Source of the DNA: Dysidea avara
Taxonomy: Eukaryota; Porifera; Demospongiae; Dictyoceratida; Dysideidae
DNA: 64,000 bases
Reading direction: 5' to 3'
Assembly: GCF_963678975.1 (NCBI RefSeq)
Contig: NC_089285.1
Span: 6,496,694-6,560,693, forward strand
The notes under the pieces are model-generated. The model did no database searches. It was not told where the DNA came from and saw nothing but the letters and a program-made list of their open reading frames with translations. Shown here piece after piece: positions 1,848 to 59,438 of this stretch; position 1 is the stretch's first letter; each line of letters begins with the position of its first letter. The position numbers and the translations under genes are program-made.

Positions 1848-1883
1848 ATCCTATAGTGTGGAGTACATACACTACTATCCTAT
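1848..1883. repeat. 29-bp minisatellite, first fragment
   Basis: A little over one unit (ATCCTATAGTGTGGAGTAC and so on) that continues after the transposon at 6202. The array is one locus split by the ISL2EU-like element. Confidence 0.85.
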
Positions 1884-1969
1884 AGACTATGTGCGATCTA
1901 GGGCGTGGCACTTATTACATCATTAAAAAATCACGTGAAAAACGCATCCGCCATTTTTTGAGGGCAAAA
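1884..1969 (+). repeat. Left terminal inverted repeat of ISL2EU-like element
   Basis: These 86 bp are the exact reverse complement of 6116-6201. The repeat contains CACGTG-like and poly-A tracts and ends where the accessory gene's leader begins. Confidence 0.9.
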
Positions 1970-1984
1970 GCGAATGTTGAAATT

Positions 1985-4205
1985 ATGACTTCTGAGTATT
2001 TTAAATCGTTAGAGTATTTAGCACAAAGACGCTATGTTGAAAAGCTCACAATACGTGATGAAGTACTACCTGATCCATACTCTATTGGCGAGGAATCGTG
2101 GACGGATGATATGACACAGTGGCCAGATCTGGTGTATGGTGATTTATATTCATATTTAATCGAAACCAAAGGGCCCTATACCAAGGAAAAGTTGAAAGCC
2201 CACAAGTCTCTGGACGCGTACAACTATTTTTGCAACGGTCATGTCCGCACTGTCTACTGCTATGGGCATGGGAATCATGTCATCCTAAAAGCATTGGTGA
2301 ACCCCAGTCAAAAGACTCCAGATCAAGCCCATAAGGCCTGGGTCATATTGCAGAAGGCTGATGCTGAAGTTATAACAGCACATTGTACTTGCAAAGCCGG
2401 GTAAGTTCTACATGGTAGTACAGATATATTGTCATTCTTGGTTTAATATGTAGCCTGGGTGAAGTGTGCAGTCACATAGCGGCAATACTTTTCAAGGTTG
2501 AAACTGCTGTTCGATTGGGTCTTACTAAGCCATCGTGCACCTCCACAAGCTGTAATTGGAACAACTGGTATAAAGAAAATGTGAGTTATCATATTGCTGT
2601 ATTTACGAATTAGGTAATAAATAGTGTTTATAACTTTTTATCTTTCTACAGATAAATCCTGCTGAAGTCAGAAATATTAATTTTGTAAAGCCTAAACACA
2701 GTTCTAAAAGAAAACAGACTTGCAGTGAGTTTACTTCTTCAGCTAAAAAGTAGCAAAGAAATTTGTCACAAATACCACCAGAAACACTCTACAGTGCAAT
2801 CAATAATTGTTTGCCCCATGCTTCTGTCTTTACTATTGTTCCAAAACCTGATGACGATTCTCAGCTATCCAAAGTGACATCGAGTGTTGGTACACCAATT
2901 GTAGATTCTGTAACTGACTCAGGAATGATATCCTCAAGTGTTGATTCATCAATTGTCACAACACCTGTGATGGAATCATCAGTGAGTCCTGATACATCAA
3001 CGGCCACTACACCCATGGTGGAATCATCATCGAGTCCCGATACATCAATGGTCACAACACCCGTGGTGGAATCACCATCGAGTCCTGATACATTAACGGC
3101 CACTACACCCATGGTGGAATCATCAGTGAGTCCTGATACATCAATGGTCACAACACCCGTGATGGAATCAACAACATCCAGTGCTGATGCATCAATTTCT
3201 TCCTTGGTGATTACACAAGTAGTACCCAGTATCCCAAAGCCTTTGCTTGAATTATTTGATCCCAAACACAAAAAACTGAGTAAGGAAATGTTGCTTCAGT
3301 TGTCAAAAGAAGTGTTTTTAAGCTTGTCTGTTACTGATGAGCAAGCTATGGCCATTGAATTAGCAACACGCACCCAAAGGCTAAGCAGTGACTGGTATAG
3401 TCAACGACAAGGTCGTATTACTGCTTCTTTGTTCCACGATGTCTTCACTTTCAAGGAAAAAAATAGTCCTGATAGTCTTTTAAAGAGGTTGCTATGTAAT
3501 GTGGACATCAGTCACATTCCGGCCATTAAATGGGGAGTTGAAAAAGAAGACACAGCAAGGAGAGAATACATTGCTAAAATGTCATCATTACATCAAGGAT
3601 TCCGGTGTACATTGGCTGGGTTGGTTGTTAACCCCCAATATCCTTTTTTGGGTGCAAGCCCAGATGCATTGGTAGAATGTAGTTGCTGTGGTGGACAAGG
3701 AATTGTGGAGATTAAGTGCCCATTTTCAGGTAAATGTACTCACCCATCACAGCTTCACAGATCGAAAAACTCATTTTAAAATGAAACTGGGCTTCGTCAG
3801 AATCACAAATATTATACACAGGTACAGGGACAGCTTGTAGTTAGCTGCAAACAGTACTGTGATTTTGTTGTATGGACACCCGAGGGAATTCTAATAGAGC
3901 GAATGGAAGTTAATTCTAACTTCACTGAAAGTTTGATTAGAAAGCTAACGAAGTTTTATGTAGAAATTATGTTACCAGAAATCCTAACTCGCAATGTAAT
4001 AGATACAAGTGAGTTGTCCAGCTCCACCACTGTAGCAGCCACCAGCAATGAAGAAGTTACATACTGTTTTTGTCAAGAAGGTGAGCATGGAAAGATGATT
4101 TGCTGTGATAATTCTGAGTGTAAGATTTCATGGTTTCACTTCAAATGTGTTGGCATAAAGCGAGCCCCTAGAGGAGATTGGTTCTGTCCTAACTGTAATA
4201 TTTGA
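1985..4205 (+). pseudogene. Transposon accessory gene: SWIM, YqaJ nuclease, PHD (two stops)
   Basis: Exons are inferred at 1985-2400, 2454-2580 and 2652-4205 with GT-AG introns of 53 and 71 bp. The ATG at 1985 is chosen because the upstream in-frame codons lie in the inverted repeat. Visible in order: a SWIM zinc finger split by intron 1 (CTCKAG then EVCSH), a Ser/Thr-rich stretch of about five 15-residue repeats (2965-3175), a YqaJ-type PD-(D/E)XK nuclease core (LGASPDALVE then GIVEIKCPFSG, later YYTQVQGQL), and a C-terminal C4HC3 PHD finger ending WFCPNC. The frame runs through exon 3 but is cut by TAG at 2751-2753 and TAA at 3777-3779, so this copy is probably inactive unless unseen splicing removes them. 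In the family the nuclease is thought to assist transposition; the PHD finger could bind histone tails, which is inference. Confidence 0.8.
2965..3175. repeat. 45-bp in-frame coding minisatellite
   Basis: About five 45-bp units encode alternating SSPDTSMVTTPVVES-like 15-mers in the linker between the SWIM and nuclease domains of the transposon gene. Because the period is a multiple of three and the units lack stops, the antisense strand is open here too (about 2861-3271). I do not consider the antisense frame a gene. Confidence 0.8.
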
Positions 4206-4337
4206 TTTTCTTAATATGTGATTATGTACTGTCCCATTTTATATTCTGCATCATAGTTCAAGTTTTAGATTTGTGAATTCTTTATAATATACTGATGAAC
4301 TAAAATGTTGTGGCGTATATAATTTCTTCACATAATT

Positions 4338-6104
4338 TTAAACCAAAGGTGGTTGCAAGTTACATAATGCAGCACATACAAATAAGATCTTATCAATGGT
4401 ACAAAATTCTTCATCAGTAGTAGATTTCACCAGGGTGATCGGTAGAGTTGACTGTAAAATTCTGAAGTTTTTGAGCCTCCCAATGGCTCGTTCCACATGG
4501 ATCCTCACCCTAGACAATTCTCTAGCTGTCTCCACTTCCCTCTGTGAGAGTTGGGGTTTTCCCTTTGTGAAAGGAGGAATTGCTAGTGAAGCACCACGAA
4601 GAGCTAAAGGTTCTGTTATATCAAAACCTCTATCAGCTAAAACCAAGTCACCGTGCATCAGCTTGTCCAAAAACCCACTGTGTGCAGTAATGTGTTTGTC
4701 ACTGGCACGTCCTCCCCAACACTTAGAAACAAAGATAATTGCACCCGTGGGGCTAATAGCAATTAGAAACTTCACAGTGTTATGACTTTTGTAATTAGAA
4801 TATGTTTCAGCTCTTGCTGCTAATGAAGATGGGCGTTGAATAAAGATTTCTGAGCAATCAATAATACATGTTGTACGGGCATATTTTGGCTTAAAACAGT
4901 CAGGGATAGTGGTCCGGATCATTCCTCTTTCTGGCCATTTTACTAGAGGCTTTAGCTGAAAGGCCATTGTATCAATCCACAGATGAAAAATTTTAGACAC
5001 TCTGGTTACATCAATTCTGAATCGATAAGCTAGATCCTGATTCGTTGTTGCCCGTCTCAGTTTCATCAAGACCATCAGAAGCTGGTCACTATGACTTATT
5101 CCTCTGTGCTCGTACGGAGGTAAAACAGTAGAAAGCAAAGCAAGTAGTGTGGTAAATGCAGAATATGATGGCAAACCAGAATAAAAATAAGTTTGTTCAT
5201 CATCATCCTTCATTCGGAGAGAGGGGCTGAGTAATACAGATGCAGTCTGCAGCTCTTCTTTCACCATTTCAGTTAACTCTTTTTGTTCATCTAGACATTT
5301 TTCCAGTGACACCTTTTTATCATTAAGTGCATCAATAACGTGATGTTGTTGCTGAATAATCTGCTGCTGCTTATGAATGATCATTACAAGTGAAGGTATG
5401 TATCCCTTAAGACATTCTTCTGCTAGATGTGAAAGCGTTCGGGGCTGATGTAACACAGAAGAATCGTCAGGACCATCACAATGCTGCTCATGGTCAATTT
5501 CCATGGTCTCAACAGCACTACTTAAAATTTCATTATCCATTATTCCAGTGCTATCAGTTATATCATTTCCTGTCGACGTCAACTCCTCGGCATTTTCAAC
5601 TTGTGGCACCTGATCACGAGTAGTAGTTGATTTGCACTTTCGTGATGCCTTACGTGTACTCGAGTGTGTACTTGATGAGTAGCCCCTTCTCCTGTTCTGC
5701 AATCTATGACTTCTAGCCAACTTATCTTCATCTGCTTCTTCATTTCTCTCTTTAAATGAGAATATTGATGGAACATAGTCAGGATCCCATTTCAACCTGC
5801 AAGGTCTTCCTGTAAAATACAGAAAAACTTCAGTAGTGGTTGTAGTGCATTCACAAAATATTACACTTAACCAAGCAGCATTCTGATTATTTACAGTATA
5901 ACTATTACACACTTTCATCCCGTGTCTACCTGAAATGAAATGTCTTCCACAGACCCGAGAATGCTGAGTTGGTTCCCAAGCTTCACGGTGAATAGCTTGT
6001 ATCCACTGTCTTCTTCGCACCAGATTCTTAGGGAAGGTGTACAATGTAACTTTTCCCGCTTTACAACGATTTCGGCACTCAACAGCACAGCAACTCGACG
6101 GCAT
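4338..6104 (-). CDS. THAP-domain DDE_4 transposase
   Basis: Starts at the ATG at 6104 (MPSSCCAVECRNR). Exons are 5930-6104 and 4338-5809, and the 120-bp GT-AG intron happens to be open in frame. Removing it joins HFIS to GRPCRLKWDPDYVPS, restoring a normal THAP C-terminus. The product is about 548 residues. The N-terminal THAP zinc finger has C6-x3-C10 and C52-x2-H55. A glutamine-rich coiled-coil stretch lies near 205-250, followed by a helix-turn-helix (NQDLAYRFRIDVTRVSKIF) and the DDE_4 nuclease with D376 (IIDCSE), D451 (LADRGFD) and E498 (HVERAIGR). All three catalytic acids are present and there is no stop or frameshift, so the enzyme may be active. It would bind the element ends and cut and paste them. 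Confidence 0.88.
   Translation of the reverse strand: MPSSCCAVECRNRCKAGKVTLYTFPKNLVRRRQWIQAIHREAWEPTQHSRVCGRHFISGRHGMKVCNSYTVNNQNAAWLSVIFCECTTTTTEVFLYFTGRPCRLKWDPDYVPSIFSFKERNEEADEDKLARSHRLQNRRRGYSSSTHSSTRKASRKCKSTTTRDQVPQVENAEELTSTGNDITDSTGIMDNEILSSAVETMEIDHEQHCDGPDDSSVLHQPRTLSHLAEECLKGYIPSLVMIIHKQQQIIQQQHHVIDALNDKKVSLEKCLDEQKELTEMVKEELQTASVLLSPSLRMKDDDEQTYFYSGLPSYSAFTTLLALLSTVLPPYEHRGISHSDQLLMVLMKLRRATTNQDLAYRFRIDVTRVSKIFHLWIDTMAFQLKPLVKWPERGMIRTTIPDCFKPKYARTTCIIDCSEIFIQRPSSLAARAETYSNYKSHNTVKFLIAISPTGAIIFVSKCWGGRASDKHITAHSGFLDKLMHGDLVLADRGFDITEPLALRGASLAIPPFTKGKPQLSQREVETARELSRVRIHVERAIGRLKNFRILQSTLPITLVKSTTDEEFCTIDKILFVCAALCNLQPPLV
5810..5929 (-). other. Intron of transposase gene, no in-frame stop
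   Basis: The donor is CAG|GTAGAC and the acceptor is TTTTACAG|GAAGACC on the minus strand. The length is 40 codons exactly, so intron retention would keep the frame and insert 40 residues into the end of the THAP region. Confidence 0.75.
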
Positions 6105-6115
6105 CACTTGTTCCT

Positions 6116-6201
6116 TTTTGCCCTCAAAAAATGGCGGATGCGTTTTTCACGTGATTTTTTAATGATGTAATAAGTGCCACGCCCTAGATCGCACATAGTC
6201 T
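6116..6201 (-). repeat. Right terminal inverted repeat of ISL2EU-like element
   Basis: Exact inverse of 1884-1969. The transposase ATG lies 12 bp inside it, so the repeat probably contains the transposase promoter. Confidence 0.9.
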
Positions 6202-6566
6202 ATAGTGTGGAGTACATACACTACTATCCTATAGTGTGGAGTACATACACTACTATCCTATAGTGTGGAGTACATACACTACCATCCTATAGTGTGGAGT
6301 ACATACACTACTATCCTATAGTGTGGAGTACATACACTACTATCCTATAGTGTGGAGTACATACACTACTATCCTATAGTGTGGAGTACATACACTACCA
6401 TCCTATAGTGTGGAGTACATACACTACCATCCTATAGTGTGGAGTACATACACTACCATCCTATAGTGTGGAGTACATACACTACTATCCTATAGTGTGG
6501 AGTACATACACTACTATCCTATAGTGTGGAGTACATACACTACTATCCTATAGTATGGAGTACATA
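6202..6566. repeat. 29-bp minisatellite, second fragment (about 12.6 units)
   Basis: Units of 29 bp (CCTATAGTGTGGAGTACATA plus CACTACTAT) are nearly identical, with a few T/C changes. No spacers separate the units, so this is not CRISPR. The array is interrupted at 6567 by the 12-kb element and resumes at 18642. Confidence 0.92.
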
Positions 6567-6570
6567 CACT

Positions 6571-18641: not shown

Positions 18642-18906
18642 TACACTACTATCCTATAGTGTGGAGTACATACACTACTATCCTATAGTGTGGAGTACAT
18701 ACACTACTATCCTATAGTGTGGAGTACATACACTACTATCCTATAGTGTGGAGTACATACACTACTATCCTATAGTGTGGAGTACATACACTACCATCCT
18801 ATAGTGTGGAGTACATACACTACTATCCTATAGTGTGGAGTACATACACTACTATCCTATAGTGTGGAGTACATACACTACTATCCTATAGTGTGGAGTA
18901 CATATA
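18642..18906. repeat. 29-bp minisatellite, third fragment (about 9 units)
   Basis: Same unit as 6202-6566. It ends in GGAGTACATATACAGGATCC, which aligns with the end of the array in the other copy at 51597. Confidence 0.92.
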
Positions 18907-26414: not shown

Positions 26415-29400
26415 AATCTCCATGGTGGTTTCTTTGTAACTGAACACTCTACAAGGTGATTTCTTCTGATTGCTCTCTCTACAGGGTGAATTGTTTGTAG
26501 CTGAACGATCTACAAGGTAACTTCTTCTAGCTGATCTCTCTACAGGGTGATGTGTTTGTAGTTGAATTCTGTACAGGTGATTTGTTTGCAGCTGAGCTCT
26601 TTACAGAATGGTTTCTTTGTAGCTGAACTCTCTAAAAGGTAACTTCTTCTAACTGATCTTTCTACAGGGTGATTTGTTTGTAGCTGAACTATCTACAAGG
26701 TAATTTCTTCTAGCTGAGCTCTTTACAAAATGGTTTCTTTGTACCTGAACTCTCTCCAAGGTAACTTCTTCTAACTGATCTTTCTACAGGGTGATTTGTT
26801 TGTAGCTGAACTATCTACAAGGTAATTTCTTCTAGCTGATCTCTCTACAGGGTGATTTGTTTGTAGCTGAATTCTGTACAGATGATTTGTTTGCAGCTGA
26901 GCTCTTTACAGAATGGTTTCTTTGTAGCTGAACTCTCTACAGGGTGATTTGTTTGTAGCTGAAATCCCTACAAGGTAACTTCTTCTAGCTGATCTTTCTA
27001 CAGGGCGATTTGTTTGTAGCTGAGTTCTCTACAGGGTGCTTGTTTGCAGCTGAATTCTCTACATGATGGTTTCTTTATAGCTCTACAAGGTGACTTCTTC
27101 TAGCTGATCTCTCTACAGGGTGATTTGTTTGTAGCTAAACTCTCTACAGGTGATTTGTTAGTAGCTGAACTCTCTACAAGGCGATACTTCTAGGTGATCT
27201 CTCTACAGGATGACTTGTTTCTAACTGAACTCTCAACAGGGTGATCTGTTCATAGCTGAACTTTCTACTGGGTGATTTGTTTGCAGCTGAACTCTCTAAA
27301 TGGTGGTTTCTTTGGAGCTGAACTCTCTACAAGGTAATTTCTTCTAGCTGAACTCTCTACAGGGTGATCTGTTCATAGCTGAACTTTCTACAGGGTGATT
27401 TGTTTGCAGCTGAACTCTCTACATGGTAGTTTCTTTGTAGCTGAACTCTCTACAATGTGACTTCTTCTAGCTGAACTATCTACAAGGTGACTTGTTTCTA
27501 GCTGAACTCTCTACAAGTGATTTGTTTGTAGCTGAACTCTCTACATGGTGGTTTCGTTGTAGCTGAACTCTCTACAATGTGACTTCTTCTAGCTGATCAA
27601 CTCTCTACAGGGTGATTTGTTTGAAGCTGAACTCTCTACATGGGAGTTTCATTGTAGCTGAACTCTCTACAATGTGACTTCTTCTAGCTGATCAACTCTC
27701 TACAGGGTGATTTGTTTCTAGCTGAACTCTCTACAGGTGATTTGTTTGCAGCTGAACTCTCTACATGGTGGTTTCTTTTTAGCTGAACTCTCTATAAGGT
27801 AACTTCTTCTAGCTGATCTTTCTACAGGGTGATTGATTTTTTTGCAGCTGAACTCTTTACATGGTGGTTGCTTTGTAGCTGAACTCTCTAAAAGGTGACT
27901 TCTTCTAGCTGAACTCTCTACAGGATGATTTGTTTGCAGCTGAACTCTCTACATGGGAGTTTCATTGTAGCTGAACTATCTACAATGTGACTTCTTCTAG
28001 CTGATCAACTCTCTACAGGATGATTTGTTTCTAGCTGAACTCTCTACAGGTGATTTGTTTGCAGCTGAACTCTCTACATGGTGGTTTCTTTGTAGCTGAA
28101 CTCTCTACAAGGTAACTTCTTCTAGCTGATCTTTCTACAGGGTGATTGATTTTTTTGCAGCTGAACTCTTTACATGGTGGTTGCTTTGTAGCTGAACTCT
28201 CTAAAAGGTGACTTCTTCTAGCTGAACTCTCTACAGGATGATTTGTTTGCAGCTGAACTCTCTACATGATGATTTCTTTGTAGCTGAACTCTCTACAGGG
28301 TGATTGGTTTGTAGCTGAAATCCCTACAAGGTAACTTCTTCTAGCTGATCTTTCTACAGGGCGATTTGTTTGTGGCTGAGTTCTCTACAGGGTGATTTGT
28401 TTGCAGCTGAACTCTCTACGTGGTAGTTTCTTTGTAGCTGAACTCTCTACAATGTGACTTCTTCTAGCTGAACTCTCTACAGGGTGACTTGTTTTTAGCT
28501 GATCTCTCTACAGGGTGGCTTGTTTCTAGCTGAACTCTCTACAGGTGATTTGTTTGCAGCTGAACTCTCTACATGGTGGTTTCTTTGTAGCGGAACACTC
28601 TACAAGGTAACTTCTTCTAGCTGATCTTTCTACAGGATGATTTGTTTGTAGCTGAATTCTCTACAGGGTGATTTATTTGCAGCTGAACTCTCTACAAGGT
28701 GACTTCTTCTAGCTGAACTCTCTACAGAGTGATTGATTTTTTTTGCAGCTGAACTCTCTACATGGTGGTTTCTTTGTAACTGAACTCTCTACAGGGTGAT
28801 TTGTTTGTAGCTGAACTCTCTACAGGGTGATCTGTTCGTAGCTGAACTCCTTATAAGGCAACTTCTTCTAGCTAATCTTTCTACAGGGCGATTTGTTTGT
28901 AGTTGAGTTCTCTACAGGGTGATTTGTTTGCAGCTGAACTCTCTACATGGTAGTTTCTTTGTAGCTGAACTCTCTACAATGTGACTTCTTCTAGCTGAAC
29001 TCTCTACAAGGTGACTTGTTTCTAGCTGATCTCTCTACAGGGTGGCTTGTTTCTAGCTGAACTCTCTACAGGTGATTTGTTTGCAGCTGAACTCTCTACA
29101 TGGTGGTTTCTTTGTAGCGGAACACTCTACAAGGTAACTTCTTCTAGCTGATCTTTCTACAGGATGATTTGTTTGTAGCTGAATTCTCTACAGGGTGATT
29201 TATTTGCAGCTGAACTCTCTACAAGGTGACTTCTTCTAGCTGAACTCTCTACAGAGTGATTGATTTTTTTTGCAGCTGAACTCTCTACATGGTGGTTTCT
29301 TTGTAACTGAACTCTCTACAGGGTGATTTGTTTGTAGCTGAACTCTCTACAGGGTGATCTGTTCGTAGCTGAACTCCTTATAAGGCAACTTCTTCTAGCT

Positions 29401-30705
29401 AATCTTTCTACAGGGCGATTTGTTTGTAGTTGAGTTCTCTACAGGGTGATTTGTTTGCAGCTGAACTTTCTACATGGTAGTTTCTTTGTAGCTGAACTCT
29501 CTACAATGTGACTTCTTCTAGCTGATCTCTCTACAAGGTGACTTGTTTCTAGCTGATCTCTCTACAGGGTGATTTGTTTGCAGCTGAACTCTCTACATGG
29601 TGGTTTCTTTGTAACTGAACTCCCTGCAAGGTGACTCCTTCTAGCTGATCTCTCTGCAGGACGATTTGTTTGTAGCTGAACTCTCTACATGATGGTTTCT
29701 TTGTAGCTGAACTCTCTACAAGGTGATTTCTTCAATAGCTGATCTTTCTACAGGGTGATTTGTTTGTAGTTGAACTCTCTACAAGGTAACTTCTAGCTGA
29801 TCTCTCTACAGGACAATTTGTTTGTAGCTGAACTCTCACATGATTGTTTCTTTGAAGCTGAACTCTCTACAAGGTGATTTCTTCTAGCTGATCTTTCTAC
29901 AGGGTGATTTGTTTGTAGCAGAACTCTCTACAAGGAAACTTCTTCTAGTTGATCTCTCTACAGGCAGATTTGTTTGTAGCTGAACTCTCTACACGTGATT
30001 TGTTTGCGGCTGAATTCTCTACATGATGGTTTCTTTGTAGCTGAACTCTCTACAAGGTAACTTCTTCTAGCTGATCTCTTTACAGGGTGAATTGTTTGTA
30101 GCTGAACGATCTACAAGGTAACTTCTTCTAACTGATCTCTCTACAGGGTGATTTGTTTGTAGCTGAACTCTCTACAAGGAAACCTCTTTTAACTGAGCTC
30201 TGTACAGGGTGAATTGTTTGTAGCTGAACTATCTACAAGGTAACTTCTTCTAGCTGATCTCTCTACAGGATGATTTGTTTGTAGCTGAACTATCTACAAG
30301 GTAACTTCTTCTAGCTGATCTCTCTACAGGGTGATTTGTTTGTAGCTGAATTCTGTATAGGTGATTTGTTTGCAGCTGAGCTCTTAACAAAATGGTTTCT
30401 TTGTACCTGAACTCTCTACAAGGTAACTTCTTCTAGCTGATGTATCTACAGGGTCACTAGTTTGTAGCTGAATTCTCTACATGGTGGTTTCTTTGTAACT
30501 GAACTATCTACAAGGTGACATCTTCTAGCTGATCTTTCAACAGGGTGATTTGTTTGTAACTGAACTCTCTACAAGAAAACTTCTTCTAACTGATGTCTGA
30601 ACAGGGTGAATTGTTTGTAGCTGAACTCTCTACAGGGTAACTTGTTTGTAGCTGATCTCTATACAGGTTACTTATTTCTAACTGATCTCTTGAATTCTGT
30701 TCAGG
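26415..30705. repeat. 4.3-kb satellite of about 31-bp units
   Basis: Around 140 units alternate among three variants: GGTGATTTGTTTGTAGCTGA, GGTAACTTCTTCTAGCTGAT and TGGTGGTTTCTTTGTAGCTG, each followed by ACTCTCTACA. Longer blocks repeat as higher-order units (a block starting near 28425 recurs near 28947, and one near 27640 recurs near 27950). Every frame is closed within a unit by TAG or TGA, so it is non-coding. The array is bounded by a MITE on the left and the CTCTATTAGAG motif on the right. Confidence 0.93.
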
Positions 30706-43206: not shown

Positions 43207-43432
<226 letters not shown>

Positions 43433-51312: not shown

Positions 51313-51457
51313 GGTCTCTCCACACTTCACAGTCCTATCTTGTGATGAGGTATATATCAGTCCCTCTCCACCCCATCGTACACAAGTCACTGACTGACTG
51401 TGACCAGTTAATATCATCACTGAATGAGCCAGCCTTGTATTCCATATGTGAACTTTA
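51313..51457 (-). pseudogene. NLE1: NLE1-like exon, copy 2 (WD4), frame broken near donor
   Basis: The minus strand reads VHIWNTRLAHSVMIL then TGHSQSVTCVRWGGEG and LIYTSSQDRTVK. After this the expected K-V-W-R is disrupted by a short deletion just before the GTAATG donor. It matches the Notchless LTGHTQSVTCLRWGGDGL, SQDRTIKVWR block. The 5' side abuts the 29-bp minisatellite, and the expected preceding residues (RYVASSSKDG-type) are missing. Confidence 0.75.
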
Positions 51458-51460
51458 CTA

Positions 51461-51597
51461 TCCTATAGTGTGGAGTACATACACTACTATCCTATAGTGT
51501 GGAGTGCATACACTACTATCCTATAGTGTGGAGTACATACACTACTATCCTATAGTGTGGAGTACATACACTACTATCCTATAGTGTGGAGTACATA
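51461..51597. repeat. 29-bp minisatellite, copy 2 (about 4.7 units)
   Basis: Same unit as in copy 1 (6202-6566 and 18642-18906) but short and uninterrupted, so it serves as the empty-site reference for both transposons in copy 1. Confidence 0.93.
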
Positions 51598-54241: not shown

Positions 54242-54441
54242 NNNNNNNNNNNNNNNNNNNNNNNNNNNNNNNNNNNNNNNNNNNNNNNNNNNNNNNNNNN
54301 NNNNNNNNNNNNNNNNNNNNNNNNNNNNNNNNNNNNNNNNNNNNNNNNNNNNNNNNNNNNNNNNNNNNNNNNNNNNNNNNNNNNNNNNNNNNNNNNNNNN
54401 NNNNNNNNNNNNNNNNNNNNNNNNNNNNNNNNNNNNNNNNN
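54242..54441. other. Assembly gap (200 N)
   Basis: A run of exactly 200 N, the usual placeholder for a gap of unknown size. Order and distance across it are therefore uncertain. Confidence 1.
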
Positions 54442-58227: not shown

Positions 58228-59438
58228 TTAATCAAGTGCTGCCTCTGTAACATTCCTTTTCTTTCCTCTAATTTTGCTGTCTTCAGTAATTACAGGTATC
58301 TGTTCTATAACACTACATGGCATGCCTTCACCTTTAAAGCCACCAGCTATAAATACAGCTTGTTGATTATTCTTGTCAGTGACAACAACTGCTGATGCAC
58401 CATATCGTGATATCACGGAGCGGCCAACACATTTCCATTCTTGTCTCTCAGGTACAAATTGGTATATCTCAGAAAACGGTTCACTGTCTTCATCGCAACC
58501 ACCCACAATAAACAAGGTTTCCTTAATAACAAATGGTGTACTGTTAATACGAGGAATGTCTATAAGAAAATCAATAATCACAGTGGGCTTTGTTGGTGGG
58601 TCAGTAGTAGTAGAAAGTAGTGACTTAACATTTTGAATTTTAGCCATTTTGTTTCCATTGACAATGTAGATATTGTCATTGATGATAACACATTTCACAT
58701 GTTTGTTGAACTCATTAACTAAAAATGAGCATGACAAGGACTCGTCATTGTTATCAATAATGAATAGGATGTTCTTGTAGCAATAGACATCATATTTGCA
58801 ACAATGTTGGATAGCTATCAAAGGGGGAAGATGGTAGGCAGATTTACGTGACTTGTCTTCTGACCAATGGGTGCACTGGGAAGGTCCTGAAGTCAAAGTT
58901 ATAGTCCAACATTTTGCATTACTCAATGGATTCTGTACAAATCTCCTCCTTACTAGTAATTGAGACAAACATTTATTACGTATCATAGTTTCACCAAACA
59001 TCTTAATCTTCTCTCTACTGGCATACCCACCATAAATGTATATAGTGTCATCATGTGGTTTAGTTAGAATCAAACCTGGAACTTCGATTTGAGGTATGGT
59101 AGACCAAATGTAAGAATGCTCTGCAGCCACACCATCAACAAAGGTGGCAGAACAGCCATGACCATGCATTATGTACCTGCTCTCATCTTTTTTCTGAATA
59201 ACTGTGGTTGTGCCTTCGGTCGCGCCACTGCTTGCAGCTGCGCCAAAATATACGAAACTTTGTTTGTACTGGGTGGCAAAGAAGTAATCACATTTAACGG
59301 AAGTGTTCCATCGTTTGATATCGTTCAAATTCAGTTCAAACTGCGAAACGAAATTGGTAGCTAAAGTTTCATGAATTTTATGCAAACCTTTGTTCGCTCT
59401 AGATCTGTTTCTGACACGCTCCTCGACTCCTCGGCCAT
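58228..59438 (-). CDS. Kelch-repeat protein, single exon, apparent 5' frameshift
   Basis: A continuous frame of about 385 codons (59385-58228) has Kelch-type blades: IYIYGGYAS (about residue 112), TLFIVGGCDEDSEPFSEIYQ followed by a W (about 290) and AVFIAGGFKGEG (about 353), ending in a basic tail (RGKKRNV). Kelch propellers mediate protein binding, often as adaptors. The expected start is ATG 59438 (MAEESRSVSETDLERTK), which flows into LHKIHETLATNF only if one base is added near 59385 (TTT in place of TTTT). As written, that ATG frame stops after 25 codons. This is either a sequencing error or an early frameshift. It is intronless, with a decayed paralogue at 55.8 kb and head to head with a kinase exon. 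Confidence 0.72.

Follow-up and report, generated by a model that had tools for sequence, protein, structure and literature searches.

The window described here, a stretch of 64,000 nucleotides (64 kb) of contig NC_089285.1, contains an ISL2EU-type DNA transposon with two genes, one for the transposase and one for a partner protein with a YqaJ nuclease domain and a PHD finger. Judged from sequence comparison, the partner nucleases of ISL2EU-like elements in this genome commonly carry an ING-type PHD finger, which is conserved among them. Its conservation across divergent partners suggests a candidate job for the partner that can be tested, namely the reading of histone H3 trimethylated at lysine 4 (H3K4me3). 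The main substance of our analysis is this PHD finger; that the partner gene of the window copy is broken by two premature stop codons we regard as ordinary recent decay. To the reading as a whole, a young ISL2EU-type insertion with a recently broken partner gene and a partner which would act as a PHD-guided nuclease subunit, we give a probability of about 0.6.

The PHD finger of the partner nuclease

The partner gene is composed of three exons. Its features, some of which were placed from the protein of L042, the copy nearest to that of the window, are as follows.

1985..2400 (+), partner exon 1
2369..2496 (+), SWIM-like zinc finger, spanning intron 1; placed from the L042 protein, below the Pfam cut-off
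2454..2580 (+), partner exon 2
2652..4205 (+), partner exon 3, with YqaJ and PHD
2751..2753 (+), premature TAG, partner codon 215, exon 3
2942..3170 (+), 48-bp coding repeat
3390..3845 (+), YqaJ nuclease domain; placed from the L042 protein, contains the TAA
3777..3779 (+), premature TAA, partner codon 557, exon 3; also in copy L037
4065..4196 (+), ING-type PHD finger; placed from the L042 protein

The introns of both element genes were deduced from the genomic sequence. The initial annotation had described the partner gene as one continuous frame, but it is interrupted by two introns (2401-2453 and 2581-2651), the splice-site dinucleotides of which are identical in 12/12 copies of the family. 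With pieces of the window as query, Pfam returns YqaJ (E = 6.8e-17) and PHD (E = 4.6e-6, 27.0 bits at a cut-off of 24), whereas in the whole L042 partner protein the PHD finger scores slightly below this cut-off (23.6 bits). The SWIM finger, which had been proposed along with these two domains, does not reach the Pfam cut-off in the whole L042 protein (E = 0.025, 14.5 bits versus 19.6); nonetheless its CxC...CxH motif is plain and is seen in other partner proteins too. The coding repeat at 2942-3170 has one 48-bp unit extra compared with seven of the eight other aligned copies in which this stretch is whole.

Compared with the sequences in the PDB, the tail of exon 3 matches ING PHD fingers (ING4, E = 6e-19); of the 55 matches listed, the top twenty all belong to ING proteins or their yeast and plant kin. 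An AlphaFold2 model built on an alignment of 13 partner proteins is confident for YqaJ (block values of the predicted local distance difference test, pLDDT, mostly above 90), reaches values near 80 for the PHD finger and is poor for the first 190 residues. With Foldseek, the YqaJ part matches LHK-Exo (1e-11) and lambda exonuclease (3e-9), and the PHD part retrieves complexes of ING PHD fingers with H3K4me3 at 52-58% identity (probability 1.00, E = 0.002-0.007).

Alignment A1 comprises 13 exon-3 proteins of this genome which are 28-41% identical to the first one, the representative of the window family, and up to 61% identical among themselves. Of 13 stretches extracted for the alignment, L056 was omitted since its frame stops before the PHD match listed there. 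Invariant across the 13 proteins are D338, E353, K355, Q390 and Q394 of YqaJ and the eight zinc ligands of the PHD finger (C4HC3). Presumed to be catalytic in YqaJ are Asp, Glu and Lys. At the positions which presumably line the ING cage Trp is found in 13/13 proteins, Met in 12/13, Asp in 12/13 and an aromatic residue (Tyr, Phe or Trp) at the place of Tyr in 12/13; the window copy has Tyr, Met, Asp and Trp. The Pfam PHD model matches nine of the 13 proteins at E = 0.01, and the remaining four, which are below the threshold, possess the ligands. The earlier idea that the finger could act on chromatin is upheld as a prediction from the ING-type sequence, the model and the mostly conserved cage.

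The domain set had been called unusual, but in this genome it is common in ISL2EU-like partner genes. A PHD-region match is located at most 2 kb downstream on the same strand at no fewer than 84 of 113 YqaJ places. Searching the genome for YqaJ yielded 119 matches (best 118 scored of 1480 candidates), from which six extra pieces of the same copies were omitted, and the PHD-region search gave 168 matches (best 150 scored of 953 candidates), of which 149 were used, one second piece being among those omitted. The count is a lower bound: L060, tallied as a miss, has the finger, and the misses L035 and L036 are deleted there. The host genome is rich in ISL2EU-like genes, some of them in long open frames. 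One such case is L066, which stands outside the alignment: its partner frame is open over 537 codons, and its PHD region obtains similar scores at several other places. Beside it a convergent long frame, L167, matches the window transposase with 42% identity over 361 residues, and with 27% (E = 5e-6) in the THAP part.

Between the window family and L043/L044 the ratio of nonsynonymous to synonymous substitution rates (dN/dS) is 0.16-0.17 for the PHD region, 0.05 and 0.12 for its core, and 0.10 and 0.25 for the YqaJ region, all with dS near or at saturation. A chance match or an oddity of the window copy is ruled out for the PHD finger by the ING-type match, the genome-wide pairing and the conservation in 13 proteins.

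Relatives were also found on contigs filed under other organisms. A scan of prokaryote genomes gave 14 loci, two of which were examined (L073 and L074). Contig JAAXGN010000095.1 (L073), filed under a Poribacteria bin, carries a convergent pair of genes in which YqaJ, DDE_Tnp_4 with HTH, and a PHD finger scoring at its cut-off are recognised; by eye a SWIM-type motif is split over two frames, and any THAP domain would lie beyond the end of the contig. Poribacteria live in sponges, and the contig is probably a stray sponge contig with a split gene of eukaryotic appearance. No DNA match to its exon 3 was obtained in the genome of the window with a tool that did recover the window's own ends, and therefore the contig likely comes from another animal. 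Like this contig, QNXQ01000076.1 (L074, filed under Aquifex), which has YqaJ and DDE_Tnp_4, looks like a eukaryotic stray. In a scan of viral contigs (best 80 of 417 relatives) no row reaches across the PHD finger (about residues 472-515), the furthest matched residue being 475, and these rows were left unused.

The element and its insertion site

The element as a whole, its flanks and its transposase gene are arranged as follows.

1880..1885, left flank CTATAG, holding the target-site duplication (TATA, or AT inside TATA)
1886..6199, whole element, 4314 bp, counted from ACTATG to CATAGT
1886..1969 (+), left terminal inverted repeat, 84 bp, 84/84 identical to the right end
4338..5809 (-), transposase exon 2
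4359..4862 (-), DDE_Tnp_4 catalytic domain (Pfam and triad)
4947..5090 (-), HTH_Tnp_4 (Pfam)
5810..5929 (-), transposase intron, 120 nt, GT-AG, in frame
5930..6104 (-), transposase exon 1, with the THAP domain
6116..6199 (-), right terminal inverted repeat, 84 bp
6200..6205, right flank CTATAG
6200..6570 (+), 29-bp minisatellite, 12.8 copies, the insertion target of the element

This ISL2EU-type element, a cut-and-paste DNA transposon, was inserted very recently. Its inverted repeats are perfect as had been stated, yet their length is not 86 bp: counted from ACTATG 84/84 bases are the same, and 90/90 when the flanking CTATAG palindrome is included, so that the earlier value lies between the two. 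A 24-bp piece of the element end (up to 3 mismatches) occurs at two places in the window and at none in 100 shuffles. The insertion took place within the CTATAG palindrome of a 29-bp minisatellite unit, in agreement with the initial annotation; a 39-bp remnant of the minisatellite is present left of the element at 1847-1885. The unit is partly palindromic and forms further arrays at 18642-18904 and 51456-51597, that is three in the window, and the array at 18642-18904, when read, has no element inside. The unit is a dispersed repeat and perhaps itself mobile.

Fourteen copies were tallied with both ends. The left flank is TATAG in 14/14 and the right flank CTATA in 13/14, the exception being L042 with CTATT, which fits a duplication of AT better than one of TATA. 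The base outside the target is C in 7/14 on the left and G in 9/14 on the right; L041, the left end of which is cut, has CTTAA as right flank. The target is TATA-centred and often CTATAG, and the ends begin with (AG)ACTATG. The target-site duplication is TATA, or AT within TATA, both being possible because the target is palindromic.

Both genes begin just within the terminal repeats and are convergent. Immediately upstream of both start codons the element ends (1886-1969 and 6116-6199) hold ATCCGCCATTTT, which is kept in most divergent ends aligned. This motif, which resembles the YY1 initiator site, may be the promoter of both element genes.

The transposase of the window copy has 548 residues in an intact frame with the triad D376/D451/E498 and a single 120-nt GT-AG intron, all as read before from the sequence. 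Pfam matches its pieces to THAP (2.2e-11), HTH_Tnp_4 (5.2e-16) and DDE_Tnp_4 (1.5e-50), and these matches together with YqaJ bear out the assignment as an ISL2EU-like element. As the intron at 5810-5929 is open and in frame, an unspliced message would yield a longer protein with a split THAP domain. The intron is 120 nt long in 12/12 close copies and open in 9/12; L034 has a stop there, and L037 and L039 are out of frame upstream. The idea of a conserved switch was dropped, since no more than about 47 nt separate the two exon matches in the divergent L043 and L045, and one match runs through in L044.

ISL2EU elements are described as a THAP-DDE transposase with a YqaJ partner (Han et al. 2015, PMC4482050), and the same two-gene picture is given by Etchegaray et al. 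(2022, PMC9179366). Their target-site duplication is AT within the target A|AT|T, their ends usually begin with GG, and their inverted repeats measure 6-259 bp (PMC4482050). The window element agrees in its THAP-HTH-DDE_Tnp_4 transposase and its YqaJ second gene (broken here, open in 5/12 copies), in repeats of 84 bp that fall within this range, and in a length of 4.3 kb compared with an average of about 4.8 kb (PMC4482050); its flanks are compatible with a duplication of AT, as they are with one of TATA. It differs in its target, which is TATA-centred and not A|AT|T (AATT), in its ends, which begin with (AG)ACTATG and not with GG, the latter being printed as usual and not as required (PMC4482050), and in the SWIM-like and ING-type PHD fingers added to the partner. 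The functions of the additional genes of the PHIS superfamily are stated as unknown by Han et al. (PMC4482050), in whose main text neither the word PHD nor the word SWIM occurs. The accessible text of PMC12730594 has no YqaJ, PHD or SWIM. We found no description of a PHD finger in an ISL2EU partner in the literature searched; Repbase, supplementary tables and subscription papers were outside this search. Han et al. further state that PHIS elements are absent from sponges (PMC4482050), and this statement needs correction if, in line with a nuclear copy of mitochondrial DNA in its genome, the host is a sponge.

Decay of the partner gene and competing readings

A search of the window's own assembly (551 Mb, 108 contigs) with a 91-base element end, a check which the initial annotation had proposed, found further copies (best 40 scored of 117 candidates). 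Twenty-five stretches were extracted, and 12 close copies, the window copy counted, were aligned, with pairwise identities of 98.0-99.8%. The alignment omits the interrupted 12-kb C4 copy (L046/L047), the fragments L048 and L049, and as too divergent the copies L043-L045 and L050-L055; the C4 copy and L049 were inspected separately at the stop sites. Incomplete among the aligned copies are L041, which lacks the left end, and L035 and L036, which have a large internal deletion. L035 and L036, located on different chromosomes, share one deletion of about 1.5 kb over the 3′ ends of both genes and form a non-autonomous subfamily that has probably moved.

Both stops, the TAG at 2751 and the TAA at 3777, are present as reported and fall into exon 3. 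At the TAG site all 11 other aligned copies as well as C4 and L049 read CAG (TAG in 0/13 other copies). At the TAA site eight aligned copies and C4 read TTA, and TAA is found in 1/10 other copies, namely L037; L035 and L036 are deleted at this site and hence uncounted. The nearest relatives are the window copy and L042 on the one hand and L037 and L039 on the other, both splits having a support of 100. Because L042 and L039 both read TTA, the TAAs of the window copy and of L037 are most simply of separate origin. In L042, which is 99.4% identical to the window copy, both genes are open (transposase 548 aa, partner 698 aa).

Within its 4314 bp the window copy has two private substitutions, one of which is the TAG. 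Two more coding changes each recur in one distant copy, the TAA in L037 and the change at transposase codon 107 in L033; the count of such shared changes covers coding positions only. The perfect ends and the two private substitutions agree with the young insertion that had been supposed. The partner is open in 5/12 copies, the transposase in 3/12 and both in 1/12. Nonsynonymous changes (nonsense included) relative to synonymous ones per site are, for shared versus private variants of the 12 copies, 0.41 versus 0.78 in the partner and 0.51 versus 0.83 in the transposase; with these small counts, the lower ratio of the shared variants is as expected if both genes were in use while the family spread. 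Comparison of the copies supports recent decay on the lineage of the window copy, and not recoding, as the source of the stops. Of the origins considered in the initial annotation, the very recent one thus fits best.

We suggest that the element operates in the following way. The THAP domain of the transposase would bind the 84-bp ends and the DDE domain would cut and join, with insertion into TATA-containing palindromes. The partner would be the second subunit, combining a YqaJ nuclease similar to lambda exonuclease with a SWIM-like finger and, at the C-terminus, a PHD finger of ING type. Docking of the PHD finger on H3K4me3 nucleosomes could then bring the transposition complex, or the repair of the donor site, to active chromatin. 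On this reading the window copy lost its partner by two substitutions on its own lineage, while its transposase frame is intact, and if the partner is required its movement would depend on partner protein supplied by other copies. That the two proteins form a complex, that the finger binds H3K4me3 and thereby targets the element, that the partner acts as a nuclease and that it is needed are predictions. Our best working hypothesis is that the partner is a chromatin-reading nuclease subunit, perhaps in parallel to the PHD finger of RAG2. More tentatively, sponge ISL2EU elements may long have had a histone-mark-guided nuclease, the PHD finger of which reads H3K4me3 and ties exonuclease and THAP-DDE transposase to active promoters; in that case DNA transposons would have acquired a PHD reader independently of the RAG1/RAG2 lineage.

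Several points weigh against our reading. The 13 aligned proteins were chosen for their long open frames. In the near-identical pair L043/L044 dN/dS is 0.63 for PHD and 0.27 for YqaJ, with few changes. At the presumed Ser place of the ING cage the window copy has Glu, and in one partner protein, L058, neither the aromatic residue nor Met is present. The contig filed under Aquifex has no PHD in the frames examined; the finger, present in more than one genome, is perhaps not found in every ISL2EU-like element and not essential to the group. With the transposase open in 3/12 and the partner in 5/12 copies, the family may be dying. Finally, two or more nonsense changes among about four random substitutions have a probability of P = 0.011, computed post hoc, which is no more than a hint that constraint on the window lineage was relaxed or that it was supported in trans.

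One alternative is that the partner was broken before the insertion and that the lineage moved in trans, with the stops inherited from the source. The perfect ends with just two private substitutions, the two nonsense changes among about four (P = 0.011) and the 5/12 copies that could supply the partner are in line with such a course. We consider it unlikely, as no second copy with both stops is present among those examined (best 40 of 117 candidates) and the TAA of L037 seems independent, its nearest kin L039 having TTA.

Equally improbable in our view is that the decay was ordinary but the PHD finger does other work, such as keeping the subunit together or recognising unmodified H3. Several ligands are known for PHD fingers, and the Glu at the Ser place and the two cage residues missing in L058 would suit another role. 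On the other side 12-13 of the 13 proteins, with 28-41% identity to the first, retain Trp, Met and Asp of the cage, and the best matches are ING fingers, several of which were solved with H3K4me3.

Assembly errors are a very poor explanation of the stops: position 3777 is at the edge of a T-run and an A-run, but both stops are substitutions and not changes of run length, and the remainder of the copy shows one other private substitution. An assignment of the element to a different PHIS group, for instance NuwaII, is just as improbable, although the NuwaII target C|TNA|G (PMC4482050) resembles CTATAG and the ends of the window element do not start with GG. The partners of NuwaII are Myb/SANT proteins (PMC4482050), whereas the window element has YqaJ and THAP; Myb/SANT is absent from the Pfam scan of the partner pieces, in which YqaJ and PHD were found instead. 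Moreover NuwaII is said to be very similar to NuwaI, the transposases of which have no other domain (PMC4482050).

Read-through of the stops to a full partner, which had also been considered, is rejected. TAG followed by CAA belongs to a leaky context of plant viruses, but most kin have the sense codons CAG and TTA at the two sites, both stops would need passing, and TAA AAT is not known to be leaky.

Parallels in other systems and further observations

If the recent insertion with a PHD-guided partner is the right reading, it would provide, next to RAG2, another example of a DNA transposase that works with a PHD reader. The RAG system is likewise a two-gene DNA transposon lineage, and the vertebrate partner RAG2 has an H3K4me3-binding PHD finger (preprint PMC11844651). 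It differs in that RAG1 is derived from a Transib transposase and that RAG2 is a six-bladed propeller (Kelch) for which no nuclease domain is named in the accessible texts (PMC4411706, PMC11844651). The PHD finger is absent from the RAG2L of ProtoRAG (preprint PMC11844651), and Kapitonov and Koonin propose a hypothetical ancestor with a Kelch-PHD RAG2L protein (PMC4411706). The PHD fingers of RAG2 and of the ISL2EU-like partner are likely a convergence. The CR1/L2 long interspersed elements also have a PHD finger in an accessory protein, ORF1, for which the authors suggest targeting within the host genome during integration; these are retrotransposons, and the neighbouring domains are others (PMC4120745).

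The ING fingers themselves (2pnx, 2vnf, 2qic, 2g6q, 3c6w) are of the same PHD type, with 52-58% identity in the aligned stretch and most cage residues kept, but belong to host chromatin proteins and not to nucleases. Lambda and LHK exonuclease share the YqaJ fold, and the presumed catalytic Asp, Glu and Lys are kept in the partner. In contrast to the partner they are single-domain nucleases of a phage and a bacterium without chromatin-reading domains.

Apart from the transposon, a search of the genome with COX1 gave 21 matches, many of them broken, which are nuclear copies of mitochondrial DNA. One of these, L069, comprises cox1, a spacer of palindromic look that is open on both strands, nad1 and the start of cob. 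AGA fits Arg in this copy, and ARAGORN finds no transfer RNA (tRNA) in it. In the keratose sponge Igernella repetitive hairpins and the cox1-nad1 boundary have been described, this boundary being without a complete hairpin (PMC2800124). Mitochondrial genomes with only two tRNA genes left have been reported from this group (PMC2444032), and tRNA loss in Keratosa is also reported in PMC10695373. From these features we take the host to be a non-bilaterian animal and probably, without going further, a keratose demosponge.

The Rfam scan of the window gave 0 matches at the gathering threshold. Exactly 200 N at 54242-54441 mark an assembly gap or a withheld stretch. A tandem array of 4.25 kb at 26417-30667 consists of 138 copies of a unit of about 31 bp, and a perfect CAG run of 74 units is located at 43208-43429. 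On the reverse strand, 58228-59385 is an unbroken frame of 385 codons with Kelch repeats (Pfam Kelch_4, 5e-10).

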